Shown: piece after piece, positions 39,421 through 53,568 of the stretch | Numbering within the stretch: the first letter of the stretch is position 1 | Layout: every line of letters starts with the position of its first letter | Assembly: GCF_014349105.1 (NCBI RefSeq) | Contig: NZ_JACSJI010000021.1 | Span: forward strand, 1 to 64,000 | Direction of reading: 5' to 3' | DNA length: 64,000 nt | Source: Caulobacter sp. 17J80-11 | GTDB lineage: Bacteria > Pseudomonadota > Alphaproteobacteria > Caulobacterales > Caulobacteraceae | The notes under the pieces: model-generated | Database searches by the model: none | Told to the model about the DNA's origin: nothing | What the model saw: the letters and a program-made list of their open reading frames with translations, nothing else | Made by a program: the position numbers and the translations under genes

Positions 39421-41835
39421 ATGATCTGGCTCGATTCGACGTCATCCGCCCGTCCGGCCGCCCATGACGTCCCAACTCTCGACGCGTGCCCCCCGGGCGC
39501 CGCGCCGCTGATCTGCTTCACCCATCTCCGCTGGGGCCGCGTGCAGAGCCGCACCGGCCATCTGATGAGCCGCTTCGCCCGCAACCGCCCGGTCTACGTG
39601 GTCGAGGAGCCGCGGCCGGCCGATCCCGACCGCGGCCCGTCGCTGGACATGGCCTCGGGCGCGCCGGGCGTCTCGGTGGCCACCCCGCGCCTGCCCGCGG
39701 GCCTCGACGGCTGGGGCCGCGACGTGATCCTGCGCCAACTGCTGGACGAACTGCTGGACCAGCACGTCCCGGCCGACCCGGTGTTCTGGTACTGCACGCC
39801 GACCATGCTGCCGTTCTCGCGCCATCGCGACCCGGCGGCGGTGATCTACGACTGCGCCCATCCGGTCGCCGCCTCGCGCCTGGGCGAGGACGAGCTGCGC
39901 GAGCTGGAGAGCGAGCTTTTGGGCCGGGCCGACCTGGTGTTCGCCGGCGGCTGGAGCCTGTTCGAGGCCAAGAAGGCGCGCCGCCGAGACGTCCACCCCT
40001 TCCCGCCCGCCGTCGACCGCGCCCACTTCGCGACCGCGCGTGGCGGGCTTCCCGAGCCGGCCGACCAGCAGGCCATTCCCGGGCCGCGCCTGGGCTGGTT
40101 CGGCGCGATCGACCGGCGGCTGGACCTCGGCCTGCTCGCCGCCGTCGCCGACGCCCGTCCGGCGTGGAACATCGTGCTGGTCGGGCCGGTGATCGGCCTG
40201 GCCGACGAGGAGCTGCCGCGCCGGCCCAACCTGCACTACCTCGGCGCGAAGCCCTACGCCGACCTGCCCGCCTACCTGGCCGGCTGGGACGTGGGCCTGA
40301 TCCCCTTCGCCCGCGGCGCGGCCGCCCGCTTCGCCTGCCCGCCGCAGACGGCCGAGTATCTCGCCGGCGGCCGACCGGTGGTGGCCACGCCGCTGGTCGA
40401 CCTGGTGCGCCACTGGGGCGAACTGGAGGCGGTGCGCGTCGCCGCCACACCGGAGAAGTTCGTCCAGGCCTGCCAGACCGCGCTGGACATGTCGGCCGAA
40501 CCCGACGGCGGCGCCTGGCGCGCGCCGGCCGACACGGCGCTGGCCGAAAGCTGCTGGGATCTCACCCACGCGCGCATGGCGGAGCTGGTGGAAGGCGTGG
40601 TGTCCGCCCGCCGCCCGGTCTCGGCCCCCTTCCTGCGCGAGATCGTCTCCGCCCCGGCCGTGCGCCCGTCGGCGCGCCGGTCGCACTACGACGTGCTGGT
40701 GGTCGGCGCGGGCATGGCCGGCGCGGTCGCGGCCGAACGGCTGGCGGCCGAAGGCGGCAAGCGCGTGCTGCTGATCGACCGCCGCCCGCACCTGGGCGGA
40801 ACCGCCTACGACCACCTGGACGCGGCCGGCATCCGGGTCGGCAAGTACGGCGCGCACGTGCTGCACACCGACCGCTCCGACGTCTTCCACCACCTGTCGC
40901 GCTTCACCGACTGGCGGCCCTGCGCGCCGCGGGTGCTGACTTCCACCGACGGCAAGCTGGTCCCCTCGCCGATCAACCGCACAGCCCTGAACGCCCTGTT
41001 CGGCCTCGACCTGGCCGGCGAGCAGGAGGCGGCCGCCTTCCTGGCCGCGCGCACGACGCCCGCGCACGCGCCCCGGACCGCCGAGGCGGCGGCCCTGGCC
41101 CGGCTGGGACCGGAGCTCTACGAGAGCGTCTTCCGCGGCTGGGCCCGCAAGCGCTGGGGCGTCGATCCTTCCGCCCTGCACAGGCGCGCCGCCGCCCGCG
41201 CCGAAGTGCGGCTGGGGGACGACGACCGCTATTTCACCGACACCTTCCAGGCCGTGCCGGCCAAGGGGTTCGGGCTGATGTTCGAGAACCTGCTGGATCA
41301 CGACGGCATCCACCTGGAGCTCGACGTCGAGTTCGAGGACGTGCGCCGCGAGGTCGTCTACGACCACCTGGTCTTCACCGGCCCGCTGGACGGCTATTTC
41401 GAGCACCGGTTCGGCGAACTGCCGTTCCGCTCGGTGCGGTTCCGCCACGAGACCCTGGACCAGGAGTGGCATCAGCCGGCCGCCGTGGTCGAGTTTCCGT
41501 CCGAGGACACCGCCTGGAGCCGCATCGTCGAGCACAAGCACCTCACCGGCCAGGTGCACCCGAAGACCAGCATCACCTACGAACAGCCCGGCGGCGCCGG
41601 CGACCCGTTCTATCCGGTGCCGACGCCTGAGAACCTGGCCCTGCACCGCCGCTACGCCGCCCTGGCGCGGGCCCAGCGGGACGCGACCTTCATCGGCCGG
41701 CTGGCCTCCTACCGCGAGCTCAGCCTCGGCGAAGCCGCCGCCCAGGCGCTGGCCGCCTCGCGCCGGCTGATCCGGCGGGGCTTGCGACACCCCGCCGAAG
41801 AGGATCAGCTCACCGCGGCGGCGTTGGCGATCTGA
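39421..41835 (+). CDS. Fusion: glycosyltransferase (GT-B) plus UDP-galactopyranose-mutase-like domain
   Basis: 804 residues. Residues ~30-395 form a GT-B glycosyltransferase-like module (CFTHLRWGRVQSRTGHLM, PRLGWFGAIDRRLDL, LHYLGAKPYADLPAYLAGWD, PPQTAEYLAGGRPVVATPL). A FAD-binding UGM module starts at residue 422 (HYDVLVVGAGMAGAVAAERL). It has RWGVDP, VRLGDDDRYF, ELPFRSV (Arg280 of Klebsiella UGM) and RIVEHKHL (Glu301 region). However, the closing motif that reads YRYLDMD in classic UGM is YRELSLG here (residues 764-770), replacing the UDP-contacting Tyr349 and Asp351 with Glu and Ser. A mutase feeding galactofuranose to its own transferase is the natural idea, but a changed substrate is possible. 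The gene stands alone. Confidence 0.8.
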   Translation: MIWLDSTSSARPAAHDVPTLDACPPGAAPLICFTHLRWGRVQSRTGHLMSRFARNRPVYVVEEPRPADPDRGPSLDMASGAPGVSVATPRLPAGLDGWGRDVILRQLLDELLDQHVPADPVFWYCTPTMLPFSRHRDPAAVIYDCAHPVAASRLGEDELRELESELLGRADLVFAGGWSLFEAKKARRRDVHPFPPAVDRAHFATARGGLPEPADQQAIPGPRLGWFGAIDRRLDLGLLAAVADARPAWNIVLVGPVIGLADEELPRRPNLHYLGAKPYADLPAYLAGWDVGLIPFARGAAARFACPPQTAEYLAGGRPVVATPLVDLVRHWGELEAVRVAATPEKFVQACQTALDMSAEPDGGAWRAPADTALAESCWDLTHARMAELVEGVVSARRPVSAPFLREIVSAPAVRPSARRSHYDVLVVGAGMAGAVAAERLAAEGGKRVLLIDRRPHLGGTAYDHLDAAGIRVGKYGAHVLHTDRSDVFHHLSRFTDWRPCAPRVLTSTDGKLVPSPINRTALNALFGLDLAGEQEAAAFLAARTTPAHAPRTAEAAALARLGPELYESVFRGWARKRWGVDPSALHRRAAARAEVRLGDDDRYFTDTFQAVPAKGFGLMFENLLDHDGIHLELDVEFEDVRREVVYDHLVFTGPLDGYFEHRFGELPFRSVRFRHETLDQEWHQPAAVVEFPSEDTAWSRIVEHKHLTGQVHPKTSITYEQPGGAGDPFYPVPTPENLALHRRYAALARAQRDATFIGRLASYRELSLGEAAAQALAASRRLIRRGLRHPAEEDQLTAAALAI

Positions 41836-41862: not shown

Positions 41863-42954
41863 TTACAACCTGCCGCGTCGCTGGTCCTCGCCGATCTTGA
41901 GGATCGAGTGCTTCTGCAGGGTCTCGGGCTGAACCCGCTCCCACAGCCCGCCCAGGCCGGCCTCTCTCCCCCGTTGCTCCTCCCGGCGCAGCCACTCCTC
42001 GACGGTCCTGATCCGGCCTGGGTGGACTTCGTCCAGCAGGGCGTAGTCGCGTTTGATGATGTCGTGCTTCCACTGGTTCCAGAACCCGGTGAAATTGTCC
42101 CGGAAGCTCATCGTGCTCTTGTCGTCGGGATCGGCGTTGTATCCGGCGGGCTTGTCGGCGGACGCCTTCAACGGGCCGTTGAAGTAGTCGTCCAGGCTCG
42201 TGTCGACATATCTGGCGGGATGTCCCGTCACCCGCTCGAAGGCGGCGGCGAGATCGGCATACCGGACGGGCTCGATCGCGACCTCGAGATCCATGCCGTT
42301 CGCGCGCGCCGGGTTGTCGAACAGCCAGCGGACATAGTGGGCGCAGTCTTCGAGGGCGACGTGCACGACCGCGCCGTCCCCCAGCGGCACCCTCCAGGTC
42401 ACGACGCCGTCCTCGACGGTCGGCGTCATGGGCGTGCGCGACGAGACGACCATCTCCATGTACGGGCCGGTGGTGAAGAGGGCCGCGCCCATCCGGTCTC
42501 GGTTCACCTGGTTCTGGAACAGGATCCACTCGCCGATGCGGCCCTTGCCGTCATAGTGGCCGGTACGGAACCTGGAGTCGTAGCCGCCCTTCTTCAGGGT
42601 GTAGTCCAGGTTGCCGTAGACGAAGAACTTGACGCCCTCCTCGAGAGCGATCTCGTAGCAGCGGATCGCCCAGTACATTTCCGTCTTCTCGCCGGTGTTG
42701 AAGCCGTCGATGTTGACGTAGGCCCCGTCGCACGCGCGAAACCCCTCCCGCAGAACGGCTTCATCCGCGAACGACCCTTCCAGGATCGACACCTCGCCCA
42801 TGTCGAGAAGGGACTTGGCGCGCGCCGATCCGGCGTCGCGCGTGAGGGCGAGAACGGAGTATTTGCCGTCGCCGACGAGACCGCGGACGACGGGCAGGCC
42901 TTGCGCGCCCGTCGCGCCGATGACGAAAATCCTGGAGACGTTCTGGGATGACAT
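41863..42954 (-). CDS. NmrA-like NAD(P)-binding protein
   Basis: 363 residues. An N-terminal Rossmann motif IFVIGATGAQGLPVVRGLVG and 'GAYVNIDGF' mark the NmrA/HSCARG atypical short-chain dehydrogenase group, with VKFFVYGNLDYTLKKGGYDS in the position of the usual catalytic region, where no YxxxK is seen. Such proteins sense NAD(P) redox state or act as reductases; no substrate is evident. It is divergent from the HxlR regulator gene 190 bases away, which probably controls it. ATG at 42954 is chosen over one at 42981 because the Rossmann fold starts just after it. Confidence 0.83.
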   Translation of the reverse strand: MSSQNVSRIFVIGATGAQGLPVVRGLVGDGKYSVLALTRDAGSARAKSLLDMGEVSILEGSFADEAVLREGFRACDGAYVNIDGFNTGEKTEMYWAIRCYEIALEEGVKFFVYGNLDYTLKKGGYDSRFRTGHYDGKGRIGEWILFQNQVNRDRMGAALFTTGPYMEMVVSSRTPMTPTVEDGVVTWRVPLGDGAVVHVALEDCAHYVRWLFDNPARANGMDLEVAIEPVRYADLAAAFERVTGHPARYVDTSLDDYFNGPLKASADKPAGYNADPDDKSTMSFRDNFTGFWNQWKHDIIKRDYALLDEVHPGRIRTVEEWLRREEQRGREAGLGGLWERVQPETLQKHSILKIGEDQRRGRL

Positions 42955-43110
42955 GGTCCATTGCTCCGTTCGTGTTCGCAAGATCTGACGACGCCGAGAC
43001 GCGCCCTCGGCTGGTCACGACGCGTCGCCGGCGAAAAAGGGTAAGCCTGGGTGACCAACGGTCATAGGCATGCGGCAGCCCTTCACAACCAGGCGGGATG
43101 TGATATCTTA

Positions 43111-43144: not shown

Positions 43145-43663
43145 ATGCGTTCGAAAAGTTTCGAGGGGATGGTTTGCCCGATCGCCGGCGCGCTGTCGGC
43201 GATCGGCGATCGCTGGGCGCTGCTGATCCTGCGCGACCTCCTCGCCGGCATCAGCCGCTACGACGATTTCCGGCGATCTTCCGGCGTGACCAACGCGACG
43301 CTCAGCGACCGGCTGAAGCACCTCGAGGGCGCCGGCCTGATCGAGCGGCGGCGGTATCAGACCGGCCCGGACCGGTACGAATACGCGCTGACCTCGAAGG
43401 GGCGGGACATCGCCGCCTTGATGCCGGTGCTCGCCGAGCTCGGCGATCGATGGGGCGTGTCGGGCGCCGCCGAACCCCCGCTGCGGTTCGTGAACCGCGC
43501 CACGGGGGCCGCCGTGCGGCCGGGGTTCATCGATCAGGAGACGGGCCAGCCGGTGAGCGCGGGAGACGTGAAGGTCATGGAAGGGCCCGGCGCCGATGAC
43601 GTCACCCGCTGGCGGCTGTCCCACCGCCGTCGTCACGCCCCCGAGGAAGCCCCCTCGGCGTGA
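43145..43663 (+). CDS. HxlR-family transcriptional regulator
   Basis: 172 residues. The winged helix-turn-helix domain occupies residues 5-105: CPIAGALSAIGDRWALLILR with the conserved redox-type Cys11, RYDDFRRSSGVTNATLSDRL and LIERRRYQTGPDRYEYALT. The C-terminal 60 residues are extra relative to minimal HxlR proteins. Such regulators often sense aldehydes or oxidants through the Cys. It is divergent from the NmrA-like gene, its likely target. Its last 31 bases overlap the end of the opposing udgX gene. Confidence 0.92.
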   Translation: MRSKSFEGMVCPIAGALSAIGDRWALLILRDLLAGISRYDDFRRSSGVTNATLSDRLKHLEGAGLIERRRYQTGPDRYEYALTSKGRDIAALMPVLAELGDRWGVSGAAEPPLRFVNRATGAAVRPGFIDQETGQPVSAGDVKVMEGPGADDVTRWRLSHRRRHAPEEAPSA

Positions 43664-45090
43664 GAGCCGCCCGCTAACTCCCACGCCGCGCGCAGGTCGG
43701 CCACGAACAGCTTCCACGCCCTGGCCCGGTCCTCGTGGCTGGGCAGGCGCAGCAGGTAGGCCGGGTGGACGGTGATCAGGCCCTGCGCGTCGCCCAGGTC
43801 GAACGGATGGCCCCGGTCCTTGGACACCGACACCGGCCGGTCGAACACGGCCTGCCCGGCGGTCGCGCCCAGCGCCACGATCACCTTCGGCCGGACCAGC
43901 CGCCGCTCGTTTTCCAGCCACCAGCGGCAGGCGCGGATCTCGCCGACGTTCGGCTTGGCGTGGATGCGCCGCTTGCCGCGCGGCTCGTGCTTGAAGTGCT
44001 TCACCGCGTTGGTGACGTAGGTCTCGGCGCGCGGCACGCCCGCCTCGGCCAGGGCCTTGTCGAACATCTGCCCGGCCGGCCCGATGAACGGCTTGCCGGC
44101 CAGGTCCTCCTGGTCGCCGGGCTGCTCGCCCACGAACATCAGCGCCGCGCGCGCCGGCCCCTCCCCCGCGACGCCCTGGGTGGCGTCGCGCCAGAGATCG
44201 CAGCGCCGGCAGGCCTGCACCGCGGTCCACACGTCCGCGACCGAGGTCGGCACGTAGGCGTCGTCGAAGGTCCCGTCGCGCACGCTCCTGGCCACCGCCC
44301 GGGCGGTGCGCTTGGACGGTTCGGTGTGGGGCGCGCCGACCATGGTCTCGGCCCTCGTCGCGGCCTGCTGGATCAGTCGGGGAATGACCTGGGCCTCGGG
44401 CAGGTTCCGCCACAGGGACTTGGGCATCTGGGCGGTCATGGCCTTCACCTTCAGCCGGGCCGGGTTGAAGGTCGCGGCGAAATACGCGCGCCAGACGTCC
44501 TCCTGGGCGTCGTCGGCGGGGGCCTCTTCGCGGCTGACGCCAGGCGAGAAGCTAAGGGCTTCGCCGTCCCAGCTGGCGCACGCGTCCGGGGTCAGCACCG
44601 CCCAGCGCATGTTGGCGAACCGCTCCACGAAGAACGGCGCGGCGCGCGCCAGCACCCGGTGCTCCGGCTCGATCCAGGCGACGTAGGCGGCCCCCTTGTC
44701 GTCCTCGACCTCGCGAAAGCGGACGTACTGCTTGAGGCGGTAGGCGGCCCGCTCGACCCCCTTGCGCAGCTCCATGGCCCGCGCCACGTCGGCGTCGGTC
44801 GCGACGTGCATCAGGCCCGGCTCGTTCCGAAGCCGCCAGAGCAGCCGGTACAGCAGGGCGAAGCGCGCCGGGTCCCGGTGCAGGACCACATCGCGCGCCA
44901 GCTCGACGAACTCGCGCGGGACCGGGAAGGCGCAGTCGCCGTCGGCGACCGTTACCTCTTCGCCCAGCTGCGCCTGCTCGCCGGCCGTCCAGGCGACCGC
45001 CTCCGGCGACACGCCCGCCGACCGCAGCGCCCGGGCGGCCCGGCGCCAGCCGCCGAAGTCGGTCTCGTGCGCCAGCCGGACGATCTTCAC
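43633..45090 (-). CDS. udgX: UdgX-type uracil-DNA glycosylase fused to DUF4130
   Basis: 485 residues from a GTG start that overlaps the radical SAM stop (GTGA). Residues 1-250 are a DUF4130 (TIGR03915-like) domain, e.g. CAFPVPREFVELARDVVLHRD and LKQYVRFREVEDDKG. The C-terminal UDG domain has CRRCDLW (Fe-S ligand pair), motif I GEQPGDQEDLAGKPFIGPAG and motif III HPAYLLR. The insert KRRIHAKP is diagnostic of UdgX; its His, here His377, forms a covalent bond with the abasic site in the characterised enzyme, making a stable DNA-protein crosslink after uracil excision. Co-occurrence with the upstream radical SAM gene is a known association (TIGR03914/3915/3916). A LexA box precedes the operon. Confidence 0.93.
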   Translation of the reverse strand: MKIVRLAHETDFGGWRRAARALRSAGVSPEAVAWTAGEQAQLGEEVTVADGDCAFPVPREFVELARDVVLHRDPARFALLYRLLWRLRNEPGLMHVATDADVARAMELRKGVERAAYRLKQYVRFREVEDDKGAAYVAWIEPEHRVLARAAPFFVERFANMRWAVLTPDACASWDGEALSFSPGVSREEAPADDAQEDVWRAYFAATFNPARLKVKAMTAQMPKSLWRNLPEAQVIPRLIQQAATRAETMVGAPHTEPSKRTARAVARSVRDGTFDDAYVPTSVADVWTAVQACRRCDLWRDATQGVAGEGPARAALMFVGEQPGDQEDLAGKPFIGPAGQMFDKALAEAGVPRAETYVTNAVKHFKHEPRGKRRIHAKPNVGEIRACRWWLENERRLVRPKVIVALGATAGQAVFDRPVSVSKDRGHPFDLGDAQGLITVHPAYLLRLPSHEDRARAWKLFVADLRAAWELAGGSHAEGASSGA

Positions 45091-46337
45091 AGCGCCAGGC
45101 TCAGCTGCTGGGGCTCGGGCGGTTTCGCCGCCACGAGCTTCGCCTTCAGATCGGCCCGGTCGGTCAGGCCGCCGGGCGACCAGTCGGCGGCGATCACGAA
45201 CGGACGCACCCTGGCGATCGAGGCGCAAACCCGCGCCACGTCCTCCAGCCGCAGCCGCCGCCAGCGCCGCGAGGCGATCAGCTTGTCGACGCTCTTCACG
45301 CCCAGGCCCGGCACGCGCAGCAGCACCTCGCGCTCGGCCGTGTTCAGGTCGACGGGAAAGCGGTCGCGGTTCTGCAGCGCCCAGGCCAGCTTCGGGTCGA
45401 CCGCCAGGTCCAGCATGCCGTCGACGCTGGAGCCGGCTATCTCGGCCTGGGTGAAGCCGTAGAAGCGCATCAGCCAGTCGGCCTGATAGAGCCGGTGCTC
45501 GCGCATGAGCGGCGGCTGGGCCAGCGGCAGCCGGGCGCTGGAGTCCGGGATCGGGCTGAAGGCCGAATAGTAGACCCGCGACAGGCCGTAGCCGGCGTAG
45601 AGCGCCTCGCTGCGGGCCAGGATCTCGTCGTCCCGGGCCGCGTCGGCGCCGACGATCATCTGGGTGGACTGGCCGGCCGGGGCGAAGCGCTTCGGCTGGG
45701 CCTTGGTTTTCGGATCGGGTTTGGCGCTCTCGCGTCCGAGGCGCACCAGGCCCATGGCCTGCTTGATGGTGCGGACGTCCTTCTCCGGCGCGAAGGCTTT
45801 CAGGCTGTCCTCGCGCGGCAGCTCGATATTGGCCGACAGCCGGTCGGCGTAGAGCCCCGCCTCCTGCACCAGGTGCGCGCTCGCCTCGGGGATCAGCTTC
45901 AGGTGAATGTAGCCGCGGAAATCGTGGTCCTCGCGCAGGCTGCGCGCCACTCGCACCAACTGCTCCATGGTGTAGTCGGAATCCCGGATGATCCCCGACG
46001 AGAGGAACAGCCCCTCGATGTAGTTGCGCCGGTAGAAGCTGAGGGTGAGGTCGACGACCTCCTGCACCGAGAAGCGGGCGCGCGGCACGTTGCTGGACAC
46101 GCGGTTCACGCAGTAGGCGCAGTCGTAGACGCAGAAGTTGGTCAGCAGGATCTTCAGCAGGCTGACGCAGCGCCCGTCCGGGGTGAAGGCGTGGCAGATG
46201 CTCTTGCCGTCGGTGGAGCCCATGCCCTTGCCGTCCAGCGAGGTGCGTTTCTTGGCGCCGGACGAGGCGCAGGACGCGTCGTACTTCGCCGCGTCGGCGA
46301 GGATCTCCAGCTTACGCTTCAAGTCGAGAACGGCCAT
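45087..46337 (-). CDS. UDG-linked radical SAM protein (TIGR03916-like), putative DNA modification/repair
   Basis: 416 residues. The radical SAM cluster motif CxxxCxxC is at Cys69, Cys73 and Cys76 (FCVYDCAYC). The N-terminus KLEILADAAKYDASCASSG is the family signature. A helix-hairpin-helix DNA-binding motif near residues 325-355 (LNTAEREVLLRVPGLGVKSV) suggests action on DNA. Reaction and substrate are unknown to me. It is the first gene of a two-gene operon with udgX, joined by a GTGA overlap. A LexA box abuts the ATG directly, so the message is expected to be leaderless or nearly so, and made on DNA damage. Confidence 0.92.
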   Translation of the reverse strand: MAVLDLKRKLEILADAAKYDASCASSGAKKRTSLDGKGMGSTDGKSICHAFTPDGRCVSLLKILLTNFCVYDCAYCVNRVSSNVPRARFSVQEVVDLTLSFYRRNYIEGLFLSSGIIRDSDYTMEQLVRVARSLREDHDFRGYIHLKLIPEASAHLVQEAGLYADRLSANIELPREDSLKAFAPEKDVRTIKQAMGLVRLGRESAKPDPKTKAQPKRFAPAGQSTQMIVGADAARDDEILARSEALYAGYGLSRVYYSAFSPIPDSSARLPLAQPPLMREHRLYQADWLMRFYGFTQAEIAGSSVDGMLDLAVDPKLAWALQNRDRFPVDLNTAEREVLLRVPGLGVKSVDKLIASRRWRRLRLEDVARVCASIARVRPFVIAADWSPGGLTDRADLKAKLVAAKPPEPQQLSLAL

Positions 46338-51979: not shown

Positions 51980-52987
51980 TCAGCGAAAAGTTGGGCCGTT
52001 CGGGGGCGTGGGCGCGCCGGGAATGGCGGGCGCCCCGGACAGCAGCGGGGCGGCCGGATCACGCAGGAAGCCGACCACGTCGCGCCAGACGGTCTCGGCC
52101 TGATAGTCGCGCAGCAAGACGTGCCAACCGTTTGCGTAATACGCCGAGCGGTCGGTAGGCTTCAGCTGGTGCGCCGCCTGGAAGGTGGGCTGGTGCGGAA
52201 TGATCTCGTCGTGCTCGCCGTAGAGATAGGCCACGGGTGCGCGCACGTAGCGCAGGCTCGCGCGGGCCTGCTCCATCAGGTTCATCAGGCCGTAGACCGC
52301 GTCCGGCCGCGTACCCCAGATCATCAGCGGGTCGCGGCCCATGCGGCGCAGCTCCGGCATGTTGTCGGAGGCCACGATTCGCCGGGCGAAGGTTTGCGGC
52401 GGCTCGATCGCCTGGTCCCCGACCGTGTGGGCCGCGAACCAGACGGCGACGCGGTTGATCACCGGCTGGGCCGACCAGCCCCAGATCGCGGGGGCCAGCA
52501 GCACCAGCCGGTCGGCGTCGGGCGGCCGGTCGGCGAAGGCGGTGATGGCCACCGCCCCGCCCATGCTCTCGCCGGCGACCGCGATGGTGGCGTGCGGGTG
52601 GCGCTTGCGCAGCAGGCCGCACAGGGTGCGCAGATCTTCGGCCATCAGGGCCCGGCCGCCCCAGACGCCGCGGTCCGGCGCCCGGCCGAAGCCGCGCTGG
52701 TCGTAGGCGTAGGTCGTGATCCCCTGCTTGGCCCACCACGGCCCGGCCATCCAGAAGGCGGCGGCGTAGTCGTTCATGCCGTGCAGGCCGACGATCACCG
52801 CCCAGGGCTCGCCCTCGGCCGCCCAGGTGCGCAGCGGCAGGCGCGCGCCGTCGAAACTGACGAAGGTCCGCGGCTCCAGCCGCGCCCCGTCGAATCCCGG
52901 CGGAGGCTGCCGGGCTGACTGCACCATGGGCGCGCAGGCCGTCAGGGCCGACGCGCCCGCCAACATCGCGAGCCGGCGCGTAATCAT
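51980..52987 (-). CDS. Alpha/beta-hydrolase lipoprotein (lysophospholipase/monoacylglycerol lipase-like)
   Basis: 335 residues. N-terminus MITRRLAMLAGASALTAC is a lipoprotein signal (Cys18). The hydrolase domain has the oxyanion motif LHGMNDYA, the nucleophile elbow AVAGESMGGAVA with Ser near residue 142, Asp in YLYGEHDEIIP and His in GWHVLLRD. It resembles serine aminopeptidase S33/lysophospholipase enzymes. A Pro-rich tail ends the protein. Its ATG overlaps the stop of the UDG-family gene upstream (ATGA), placing it last in a four-gene minus-strand operon. Confidence 0.9.
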   Translation of the reverse strand: MITRRLAMLAGASALTACAPMVQSARQPPPGFDGARLEPRTFVSFDGARLPLRTWAAEGEPWAVIVGLHGMNDYAAAFWMAGPWWAKQGITTYAYDQRGFGRAPDRGVWGGRALMAEDLRTLCGLLRKRHPHATIAVAGESMGGAVAITAFADRPPDADRLVLLAPAIWGWSAQPVINRVAVWFAAHTVGDQAIEPPQTFARRIVASDNMPELRRMGRDPLMIWGTRPDAVYGLMNLMEQARASLRYVRAPVAYLYGEHDEIIPHQPTFQAAHQLKPTDRSAYYANGWHVLLRDYQAETVWRDVVGFLRDPAAPLLSGAPAIPGAPTPPNGPTFR

Positions 52988-53564
52988 GTGGTCAAGATAC
53001 CGCTCACCCTTGCTCTCAGGTAAGGCACGATCTCGCGATCAAACCATGGGTTTTTCTTGAGCCAGCTGGTGTTGCGCCAGGACGGATGCGGCAGCGGCAC
53101 CACGCCGGGCGCGTACTCACGCCAGGCCCGCACGGTCTCGGTCATGTTGGCCTTGGCGGTCGGTCCCAGCGCCCAGACCTGGGCGTGCCACCCCACCAAC
53201 AGGGTCAACTCGACCTCCTTCAGCTCGGACAGCAAGCGCTTGCGCCACAGCTCGGCGCAACGCTTGGGCGGGGGATAATCCCCACCAGCCGGGTTCGTTC
53301 CTGGAAAGCAGAAGGCCATGGCCGCCACGCCGATGCGCGGGTCGCCGTAGAAGGTCTCGGAATCCACGCCGAGCCAGTCGCGCAGGCGGTCGCCGGACGG
53401 GTCGGTGAACGGCTGGCCGCTCTCGTGCACGCGCCGTCCCGGGGCCTGGCCGCAGACCAGCAGGCGCGTCTGGCGCGAGACCATCACCACCGGGCGCGGC
53501 TCGTGCCCGAACTCCCCGGCGCAGGCGCGGCAGGCCGAGATCTCCTTCAGCACCTGCTCCAGGC

Positions 53565-53568
<4 letters not shown>
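52984..53568 (-). CDS. Uracil-DNA glycosylase family protein (second UDG in the window)
   Basis: 194 residues. The UDG fold is recognised from motif I LLVCGQAPGRRVHESGQPF near residue 36 and motif III PLPHPSWRN near residue 165, with the strand LTLLVGWHAQVWALG between. A CRAC pair at residues 13-16 and further Cys in LLVCGQ, AFCFPG and KRCAEL might bind an Fe-S cluster. It lacks the KRRIH insert of UdgX. Substrate base is not known. ATGA overlaps link it to the DUF1232 gene before and the hydrolase after. Confidence 0.85.

Follow-up and report, generated by a model that had tools for sequence, protein, structure and literature searches.

We analysed a 64-kb window of Caulobacter sp. 17J80-11 DNA, the window being the whole stretch from position 1 to 64,000 of contig NZ_JACSJI010000021.1, and focused on two adjacent minus-strand genes at 43633-46337. 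One gene encodes a radical S-adenosylmethionine (SAM) protein, and the other encodes a DUF4130 domain fused to a uracil-DNA glycosylase (UDG) domain of the UdgX type. The pair probably encodes an SOS-induced lesion enzyme, in which the radical SAM protein works with DUF4130 while docked on the sliding clamp, and UdgX is a fused accessory that captures uracil or abasic sites. This reading was built on observations at sequence level, which were the gene architecture, the co-occurrence of the genes, an SOS box, a clamp motif, invariant cysteines and a conserved crosslinking His. A first-pass annotation had placed the minus-strand pair at 43633-46337, and all its sequence statements were correct. 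It did not mention a LexA box, a clamp motif or the three extra cysteines. The features of the locus are listed below.

45087-46337, minus strand: radical SAM gene (rSAM_link_UDG, 416 aa), matching TIGR03916 and PF04055
43633-45090, minus strand: DUF4130-UdgX fusion gene (485 aa, GTG start), matching TIGR03915, TIGR03914, PF13566 and PF03167
45087-45090, minus strand: GTGA overlap of the stop and start codons of the gene pair, from the sequence
44392-45069, minus strand: DUF4130 domain with a tentative DHH/RecJ-like fold, from the family match, AlphaFold model and fold matches
43687-44388, minus strand: UdgX-type domain, from the family match and structure alignment
43960-43974, minus strand: R-loop KRRIH including the crosslinking His377, from alignment to Mycobacterium smegmatis UdgX
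46110-46133, minus strand: radical SAM cluster motif C69-x3-C73-x2-C76, from the sequence and invariant in 63 diverse relatives
46167-46271, minus strand: span of the invariant C23, C48 and C57 (putative second Fe-S cluster), from the alignment of 63 relatives
45267-45353, minus strand: helix-hairpin-helix motif, residues 329-357, from a weak HHH_3 match and the ComEA profile match
45090-45107, minus strand: C-terminal QLSLAL, a hexapeptide form of the sliding-clamp-binding motif, from the sequence and the consensus in an excerpt of PMC12309361
46338-46352, no strand assigned: perfect alphaproteobacterial SOS (LexA) box GTTCTTAATATGTTC, the single match in the window and conserved in relatives

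Co-occurrence was monitored in 299 Pseudomonadota genomes, which were searched for TIGR03916 (radical SAM), TIGR03915 (DUF4130) and TIGR03914 (UdgX), and the matches over cut-off were compared. The radical SAM gene was present in 53 of the 299 genomes, and DUF4130 was present in all of these (53/53). UdgX was over its cut-off in 40 of the 53 (Fisher p 1e-27), and the other 13 had no such match. The radical SAM gene was lacking in 12 of the 52 genomes with UdgX. The first-pass annotation had coupled the radical SAM protein to UdgX in particular and had set a listing of the genomes with both genes as its test. By this listing the radical SAM-UdgX coupling fared poorly, and the near-obligate partner was DUF4130. 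The radical SAM-DUF4130 pairing survived the test of whether the genes occur apart. Based on the co-occurrence counts, the conserved unit was taken to be the radical SAM protein plus DUF4130, with UdgX as an optional fused module.

The trend was also observed within loci. DUF4130 was found in the same locus in 124 of 131 radical SAM loci, a number that counts the window locus twice (L001 and L002). As for the seven others, L083, L113 and L116 ended 0.8 kb or less from the gene, L117 ended inside the gene, L120 was an outlier, and in L026 and L029 DUF4130 lay approximately 3 kb from the radical SAM gene, as seen in L135 and L136. L120, from Gemmatirosa, was rejected as a family member (38% identity, DUF4130 not found). 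The adjacency of radical SAM and DUF4130 was seen in loci of four phyla. UdgX was fused to DUF4130 in most proteobacterial loci seen. In the loci read from Bacteroidota, Bacillota, Fusobacteriota and Acinetobacter, the radical SAM gene was accompanied by a stand-alone DUF4130, and the fetched stretches contained no UdgX. A control genome, Bacteroides ihuae, matched TIGR03916 and TIGR03915 and not TIGR03914, and another, Caulobacter vibrioides, had matches to all three models. DUF4130 changed between the fused and stand-alone states approximately nine times on a quick tree with long branches, or 12 times with L018, L024 and L025. These three loci were cut by a locus or contig end and were left out of the nine-change count; they are within the 27 loci scored as not fused. 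The 4-base overlap between the two genes was found in 42 of 123 loci, the window copy counted in, so that it was common but not universal. The GTGA overlap named earlier was thus confirmed, and the equal production read from it was not.

The C-terminus of the radical SAM protein pointed to the replication machinery. The window protein ended in QLSLAL, and the otherwise variable tails of its relatives carried QLSLF, QLELF, QLSLL, QLSLGF, QLILEF, QLKLF and similar motifs. They were found in Pseudomonadota, Bacteroidota, Bacillota and Fusobacteriota, where the surrounding tail was hardly alignable. The clamp-binding consensus is QL[S/D]LF or QxxLF, and a QLSLPL peptide binds the E. coli clamp tightly, according to an excerpt of PMC12309361. 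Within the last 12 residues, QxxLF was present in 78 of 128 radical SAM proteins and in 1 of 719 control open reading frames (ORFs), and the shuffled mean was 0.14 of 63. L002, which repeats the window locus, the truncated L117 and the outlier L120 were left out of the 128 tails and of the upstream stretches described below. Residues 410-416 of the structural model had a predicted local distance difference test (pLDDT) value below 50, and such a low-confidence tail is what a flexible docking peptide would show. From these sequences we infer docking of the radical SAM protein on DnaN via its C-terminal peptide. The motif was also looked for in the DUF4130/UdgX proteins and was discarded there, with only 4 scattered cases in 125. 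No earlier report of a clamp-linked radical SAM enzyme was found among the matches listed in a full-text search, which covered few subscription journals.

The region upstream of the operon suggested regulation by DNA damage. One perfect GTTC-N7-GTTC was found in the 64-kb window, and it abutted the radical SAM start codon. The window box alone proved little because 1.3 matches were expected by chance in 64 kb, and the assignment was decided by the relatives and their controls. The box was located 100 bp or less upstream of 104 of 128 radical SAM copies, counted strictly upstream (105 when 20 coding bases were counted in), and of 44 of the 63 copies at <80% identity. The controls gave 0/128 inside the gene, 2/128 with the reversed pattern and 19/511 upstream of other ORFs. 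In addition, lexA and recA of the source genome had the same box upstream, and GTTC-N7-GTTC gave 95 matches genome-wide compared to 23 for the reversed pattern. Four loci carried CTGT-N8-ACAG instead, three of them strictly upstream; two came from named betaproteobacteria (Comamonas and Caballeronia). The box was present in 7 of 8 stand-alone DUF4130 loci taken as alphaproteobacterial, which indicated that SOS control was independent of UdgX. These results suggested that the operon is under LexA/SOS control.

Of the 131 loci, many of which had short flanks, 16 had an ImuB-like ORF close to the operon, and 14 of these 16 also had an ImuA-like ORF. Pfam Y-family domains were present in all four ImuB-like ORFs scanned. 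The two ImuA-like ORFs scanned gave no Pfam match, so the ImuA label is based on similarity. The ImuA-ImuB-DnaE2 mutasome is likewise damage-induced and is docked on the clamp through ImuB (excerpt of PMC10421592). It is a translesion polymerase assembly, unlike the radical enzyme considered here.

Both window genes passed the curated cut-offs of the NCBIfam models rSAM_link_UDG, SAM_7_link_chp and UDG_fam_dom (TIGR03916, TIGR03915 and TIGR03914), and annotated records elsewhere carried the same product names. The window locus is real and had been read correctly, and it belongs to a pair of families that is known but uncharacterised. We take COG4277 to be the radical SAM family of the window. 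For Bacteroidetes, PMC8565304 describes a COG1573-COG4277 operon under SOS control, and it cites reports on Verrucomicrobia and Caulobacter. In operon type and class of regulation, that operon seems to correspond to the window pair. It was read there as putative UDG-based base excision repair, whereas the core here was radical SAM plus DUF4130 with UdgX optional. A 2013 paper (PMC3765255) names DUF4130, radical SAM and UDG together in one of its figure legends. The first-pass annotation had called the pair an undescribed system, and it is preceded by the NCBIfam models, by the domain link in this legend and by the SOS operon in the excerpt of PMC8565304. The NCBIfam models name no mechanism, and the SOS box, the clamp motif and the extra cysteines were added to them by the present analysis. 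New here are the clamp motif, the three additional cysteines and a pairing that puts DUF4130 first; SOS control as such was already in print. The full-text search, with its coverage of few subscription journals, found no literature that joins UdgX with a radical SAM protein.

The radical SAM protein matched TIGR03916 with 549.6 bits (cut-off 343.5), its sole NCBIfam match at E 0.001, and PF04055 with E 1.5e-7. The CxxxCxxC partner reported in the first reading was present as CVYDCAYC. The helix-hairpin-helix motif of that reading was upheld by the family profile, whose best match in the PDB was the helix-hairpin-helix protein ComEA, in that region, with E 0.0013. The Pfam side of it was weaker, with a C-terminal HHH_3 match below the gathering threshold (E 0.0032, 18 bits, gathering 27). 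The DNA-binding features of the radical SAM partner, together with the DNA-damage context, belonged to the supported parts of the earlier reading, as did the UdgX-type domain with its crosslinking His and the N-terminal DUF4130. By family profile, the closest solved sequences were ComEA, HydG and HydE, all weak. The protein model gave lipoyl synthase (Z 18.6, 219 residues, 3.0 Å), MqnE (18.3) and HydE (18.0) as top fold matches, and MiaB and RimO were among the Foldseek matches. The identity in these structural alignments was approximately 10-15%. Lipoyl synthase was not singled out by fold, because MqnE and HydE tied with it. Solved structures of spore photoproduct lyase (SPL, SplB) were not among the matches listed in the fold, Foldseek and profile comparisons. 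The PADLOC anti-phage models gave no family for either protein at E up to 0.1.

Six cysteines were invariant in 63 diverse radical SAM sequences of under 80% identity. Three of them, C69, C73 and C76, make up the SAM motif, and the other three, C23, C48 and C57, precede it. No Cys was conserved after C76 in this set. LipA and MiaB likewise carry additional cysteines ahead of the SAM motif. Binding of a second Fe-S cluster by C23, C48 and C57 is plausible. The likeness to the class of lipoyl synthase, biotin synthase and HydE lay in the radical SAM fold, by the best structural matches, and in the extra N-terminal cysteines, whereas the helix-hairpin-helix and the clamp motif are features of the window protein.

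The second gene gave clear family matches at both ends. The UdgX domain had 313.1 bits to TIGR03914 (cut-off 189.95) and aligned to the M. smegmatis UdgX structures with E 2.9e-47, and the crosslinking His was residue 377 in KRRIH, as had been annotated. Motif A was GEQPG. The window domain shared GEQPG, KRRIH and the crosslinking His with M. smegmatis UdgX, and differed from it in the fusion to DUF4130, the link to a radical SAM gene and motif B, which was HPAYLLR. The crosslinking His was kept in all 96 DUF4130-fused relatives. The published motif B is HPS(S/A)(L/V)(L/V)R in an excerpt of PMC10359453, and the window form departed from it; the domain was named UdgX-type for this reason. Among the fused relatives, HPSYLLR was the most common form (59/96). 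Most of them carried Tyr or Phe at the position of Ser/Ala in the mycobacterial UdgX. The DUF4130-fused UdgX domains may be a subclass, perhaps with an altered DNA contact. The window copy may capture abasic sites covalently. A second gene of the UDG superfamily was found at 52984-53568 on the minus strand, approximately 6.6 kb away, with 84.6 bits to PF03167. It gave 21 and 19 bits to the UdgX and type-4 models, far under their cut-offs. The genome had four UDG-superfamily matches in total.

DUF4130 was confirmed at the N-terminus of the UDG protein, with E 5.8e-34 and 117.7 bits to PF13566 (cut-off 27) and 187.6 bits to TIGR03915 (cut-off 112.25). Its AlphaFold model had a pLDDT of 89. The best structural match was Z 8.3 (176 residues, 4.4 Å), a Z of a size that is common, and the best Foldseek E was weak at 0.037. 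We take most of the 50 structural rows to be members of the DHH/DHHA1 superfamily (RecJ, Cdc45 and PPase II). A comparison with RecJ by hhalign gave a probability of 0.1, with a narrow RecJ profile of 20 RecJ sequences from relatives, and sequence kinship of DUF4130 with RecJ was dropped. When 66 DUF4130 members were compared with Pfam at E up to 10, the eight families listed included no DHH/DHHA1 match, and the extras were only weak ones such as PB1. The RecJ/DHH-like fold is tentative and was held as a lead only, because the Z was commonplace, the Foldseek E was weak and sequence support was none. The window copy had Tyr at residue 117, where most relatives have His.

Several other explanations were weighed against these data. 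In the first-pass annotation, the radical SAM protein was proposed to repair, release or modify the lesion that UdgX captures in a DNA-protein crosslink. The two are encoded in the same operon, the crosslinking His was kept throughout the fused relatives, and UdgX and radical SAM co-occurred far beyond chance. The proposal was weakened by the genomes in which either gene stood without the other (13/53 and 12/52) and by the absence of UdgX from the stretches fetched for Bacteroidota, Bacillota, Fusobacteriota and Acinetobacter loci, as well as by B. ihuae without TIGR03914, and we regard it as very unlikely. Repair of photoproducts in the manner of SplB would also suit the DNA-damage context. 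In SplB, a Cys downstream of CxxxCxxC is the hydrogen donor. The lack of any conserved Cys after C76 in the 63 diverse sequences argued against a mechanism of this type. In addition, TIGR03916 was the only NCBIfam match, and neither the weak nearest sequences (ComEA, HydG and HydE) nor the best folds (lipoyl synthase, MqnE and HydE) pointed to SplB. The label of SplB-like radical SAM photolyases was given to DUF4130-linked proteins in the legend of PMC3765255, whereas SplB (COG1533) and COG4277 were given as separate SOS genes in the excerpt of PMC8565304. We see little chance for this explanation.

A two-cluster enzyme in the style of LipA and MiaB could insert sulfur into DNA, or modify it in another way, and not repair it. 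The three further invariant cysteines before the SAM motif match the arrangement in LipA and MiaB, lipoyl synthase headed the fold list, and MiaB and RimO were among the Foldseek matches. This was offset by the tie with MqnE and HydE, by the low model confidence around the cysteines and by the SOS control, which better suits a damage response than a constitutive modification. A modification enzyme of this kind is unlikely. Finally, SOS transcription might be the only trait in common, with radical SAM, DUF4130 and UdgX not acting on one substrate. A hemerythrin-type gene between both genes in some sphingomonads, the gap of approximately 3 kb in two genomes and the three genomes with DUF4130 and no radical SAM gene would fit such a loose association. 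The co-occurrence of DUF4130 in 53/53 genomes and the adjacency in four phyla spoke against it, and it appears improbable.

The reading of a clamp-docked, SOS-induced radical SAM-DUF4130 lesion enzyme also has points that weigh against it. Three genomes, all from a single genus (G200, G217 and G287), had DUF4130 but no radical SAM gene, so DUF4130 can persist in its absence; two of these genomes had UdgX and all three had an SOS box upstream of DUF4130. No LexA motif of those tried was found in 14 of 20 loci taken as non-alphaproteobacterial. Regarding the tail, QxxLF in the last 45 residues was present in 79/128 radical SAM proteins and in 14/719 controls, and the hexapeptide form of the window, QLxLx[FL], was rare, with 8/128 tails (0/719 controls) in the last 12 residues. 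A broad motif pattern matched 123/128 tails and 9/719 controls, and it was defined after the tails had been inspected. Its five misses were QGSLF, QASLF (two), QFELF and the tail of L041, which was without any motif. The N-terminal cysteine region of the radical SAM model was partly below pLDDT 50, and the second Fe-S cluster stays a prediction because of this low confidence. Motif B was unlike the biochemically studied UdgX form in 95 of the 96 fused relatives, with the published form in 1/96. In the literature searched, no experiment was found on clamp binding or catalysis of the radical SAM-DUF4130 pair.

For the lesion enzyme of radical SAM and DUF4130, the following mechanism is proposed. 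DNA damage would induce the two-gene LexA-controlled operon through the SOS response. The radical SAM protein would dock on the DnaN sliding clamp by the C-terminal QLSLAL/QLxLF peptide and touch the DNA by the helix-hairpin-helix. In a complex with its near-obligate partner DUF4130, it might then act on a lesion located at the replication fork or behind it by means of a 5'-deoxyadenosyl radical, a step in which the second Fe-S cluster on C23/C48/C57 would probably help. UdgX, as the accessory, would excise uracil and, next to this clamp, cap the abasic site covalently. A more specific version can be put forward only tentatively, and we lean slightly against it. It describes a clamp-tethered, SOS-induced class of two-cluster radical SAM enzymes. 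Together with a RecJ/Cdc45-like DUF4130, such an enzyme would act directly on a lesion that blocks the fork, by reversing or processing it, and the fused UdgX would cap abasic sites derived from uracil on that clamp. The whole would work alongside the ImuA-ImuB-DnaE2 mutasome. The gene pair is widespread, with 53/299 Pseudomonadota genomes and loci in three other phyla, and known chemistry was not found for it. The clamp motif and the SOS box turn this orphan pair into a testable replication-linked repair enzyme. The order of partners implied is radical SAM with DUF4130 and DnaN first, and UdgX second. Should a radical SAM enzyme indeed act on the clamp, the replication-repair toolbelt would gain a new kind of chemistry, and a covalent uracil binder would have a setting in the SOS response.

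Several side observations were made in the loci. The hemerythrin-type gene between radical SAM and DUF4130 was seen in sphingomonad-type loci, at 7318-7797 of L066, where the assignment to PF01814 was tested, and as similar ORFs in L071, L073 and L101. It might handle oxygen or iron for an oxygen-sensitive enzyme. The three loci with DUF4130 and no radical SAM gene were L137, L138 and L174 (in G217, G287 and G200), each with the SOS box ahead of DUF4130. In L138, this box lay between DUF4130 and a divergent imuA-imuB-like pair. Two ORFs upstream of DUF4130-UdgX in L137 gave no Pfam match. Many recurrent neighbour clusters were set aside as they looked like high-GC antisense reading frames.

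The operon was also seen on a plasmid. It was near repABC in L123, a 70-kb plasmid of Leisingera caerulea, and 158 records of a plasmid collection matched the radical SAM protein, of which 58 were from Phaeobacter. L122 (CAKLQH020000003.1) comes from a record of 240 kb that bears the name "Acinetobacter phage MD-2021a". This record looked like bacterial chromosome because glyS, glyQ and aidB accompany the operon. In the window, an HxlR-type gene at 43145-43663 on the plus strand overlapped the 3' end of the UdgX gene by 31 bases at its own 3' end, on the opposite strand. An NmrA-like gene at 41863-42981 (minus strand) was divergent from it. A plus-strand gene at 39421-41835 encoded an 804-aa protein with a glycosyltransferase-like half and a UDP-galactopyranose mutase (GLF) half.

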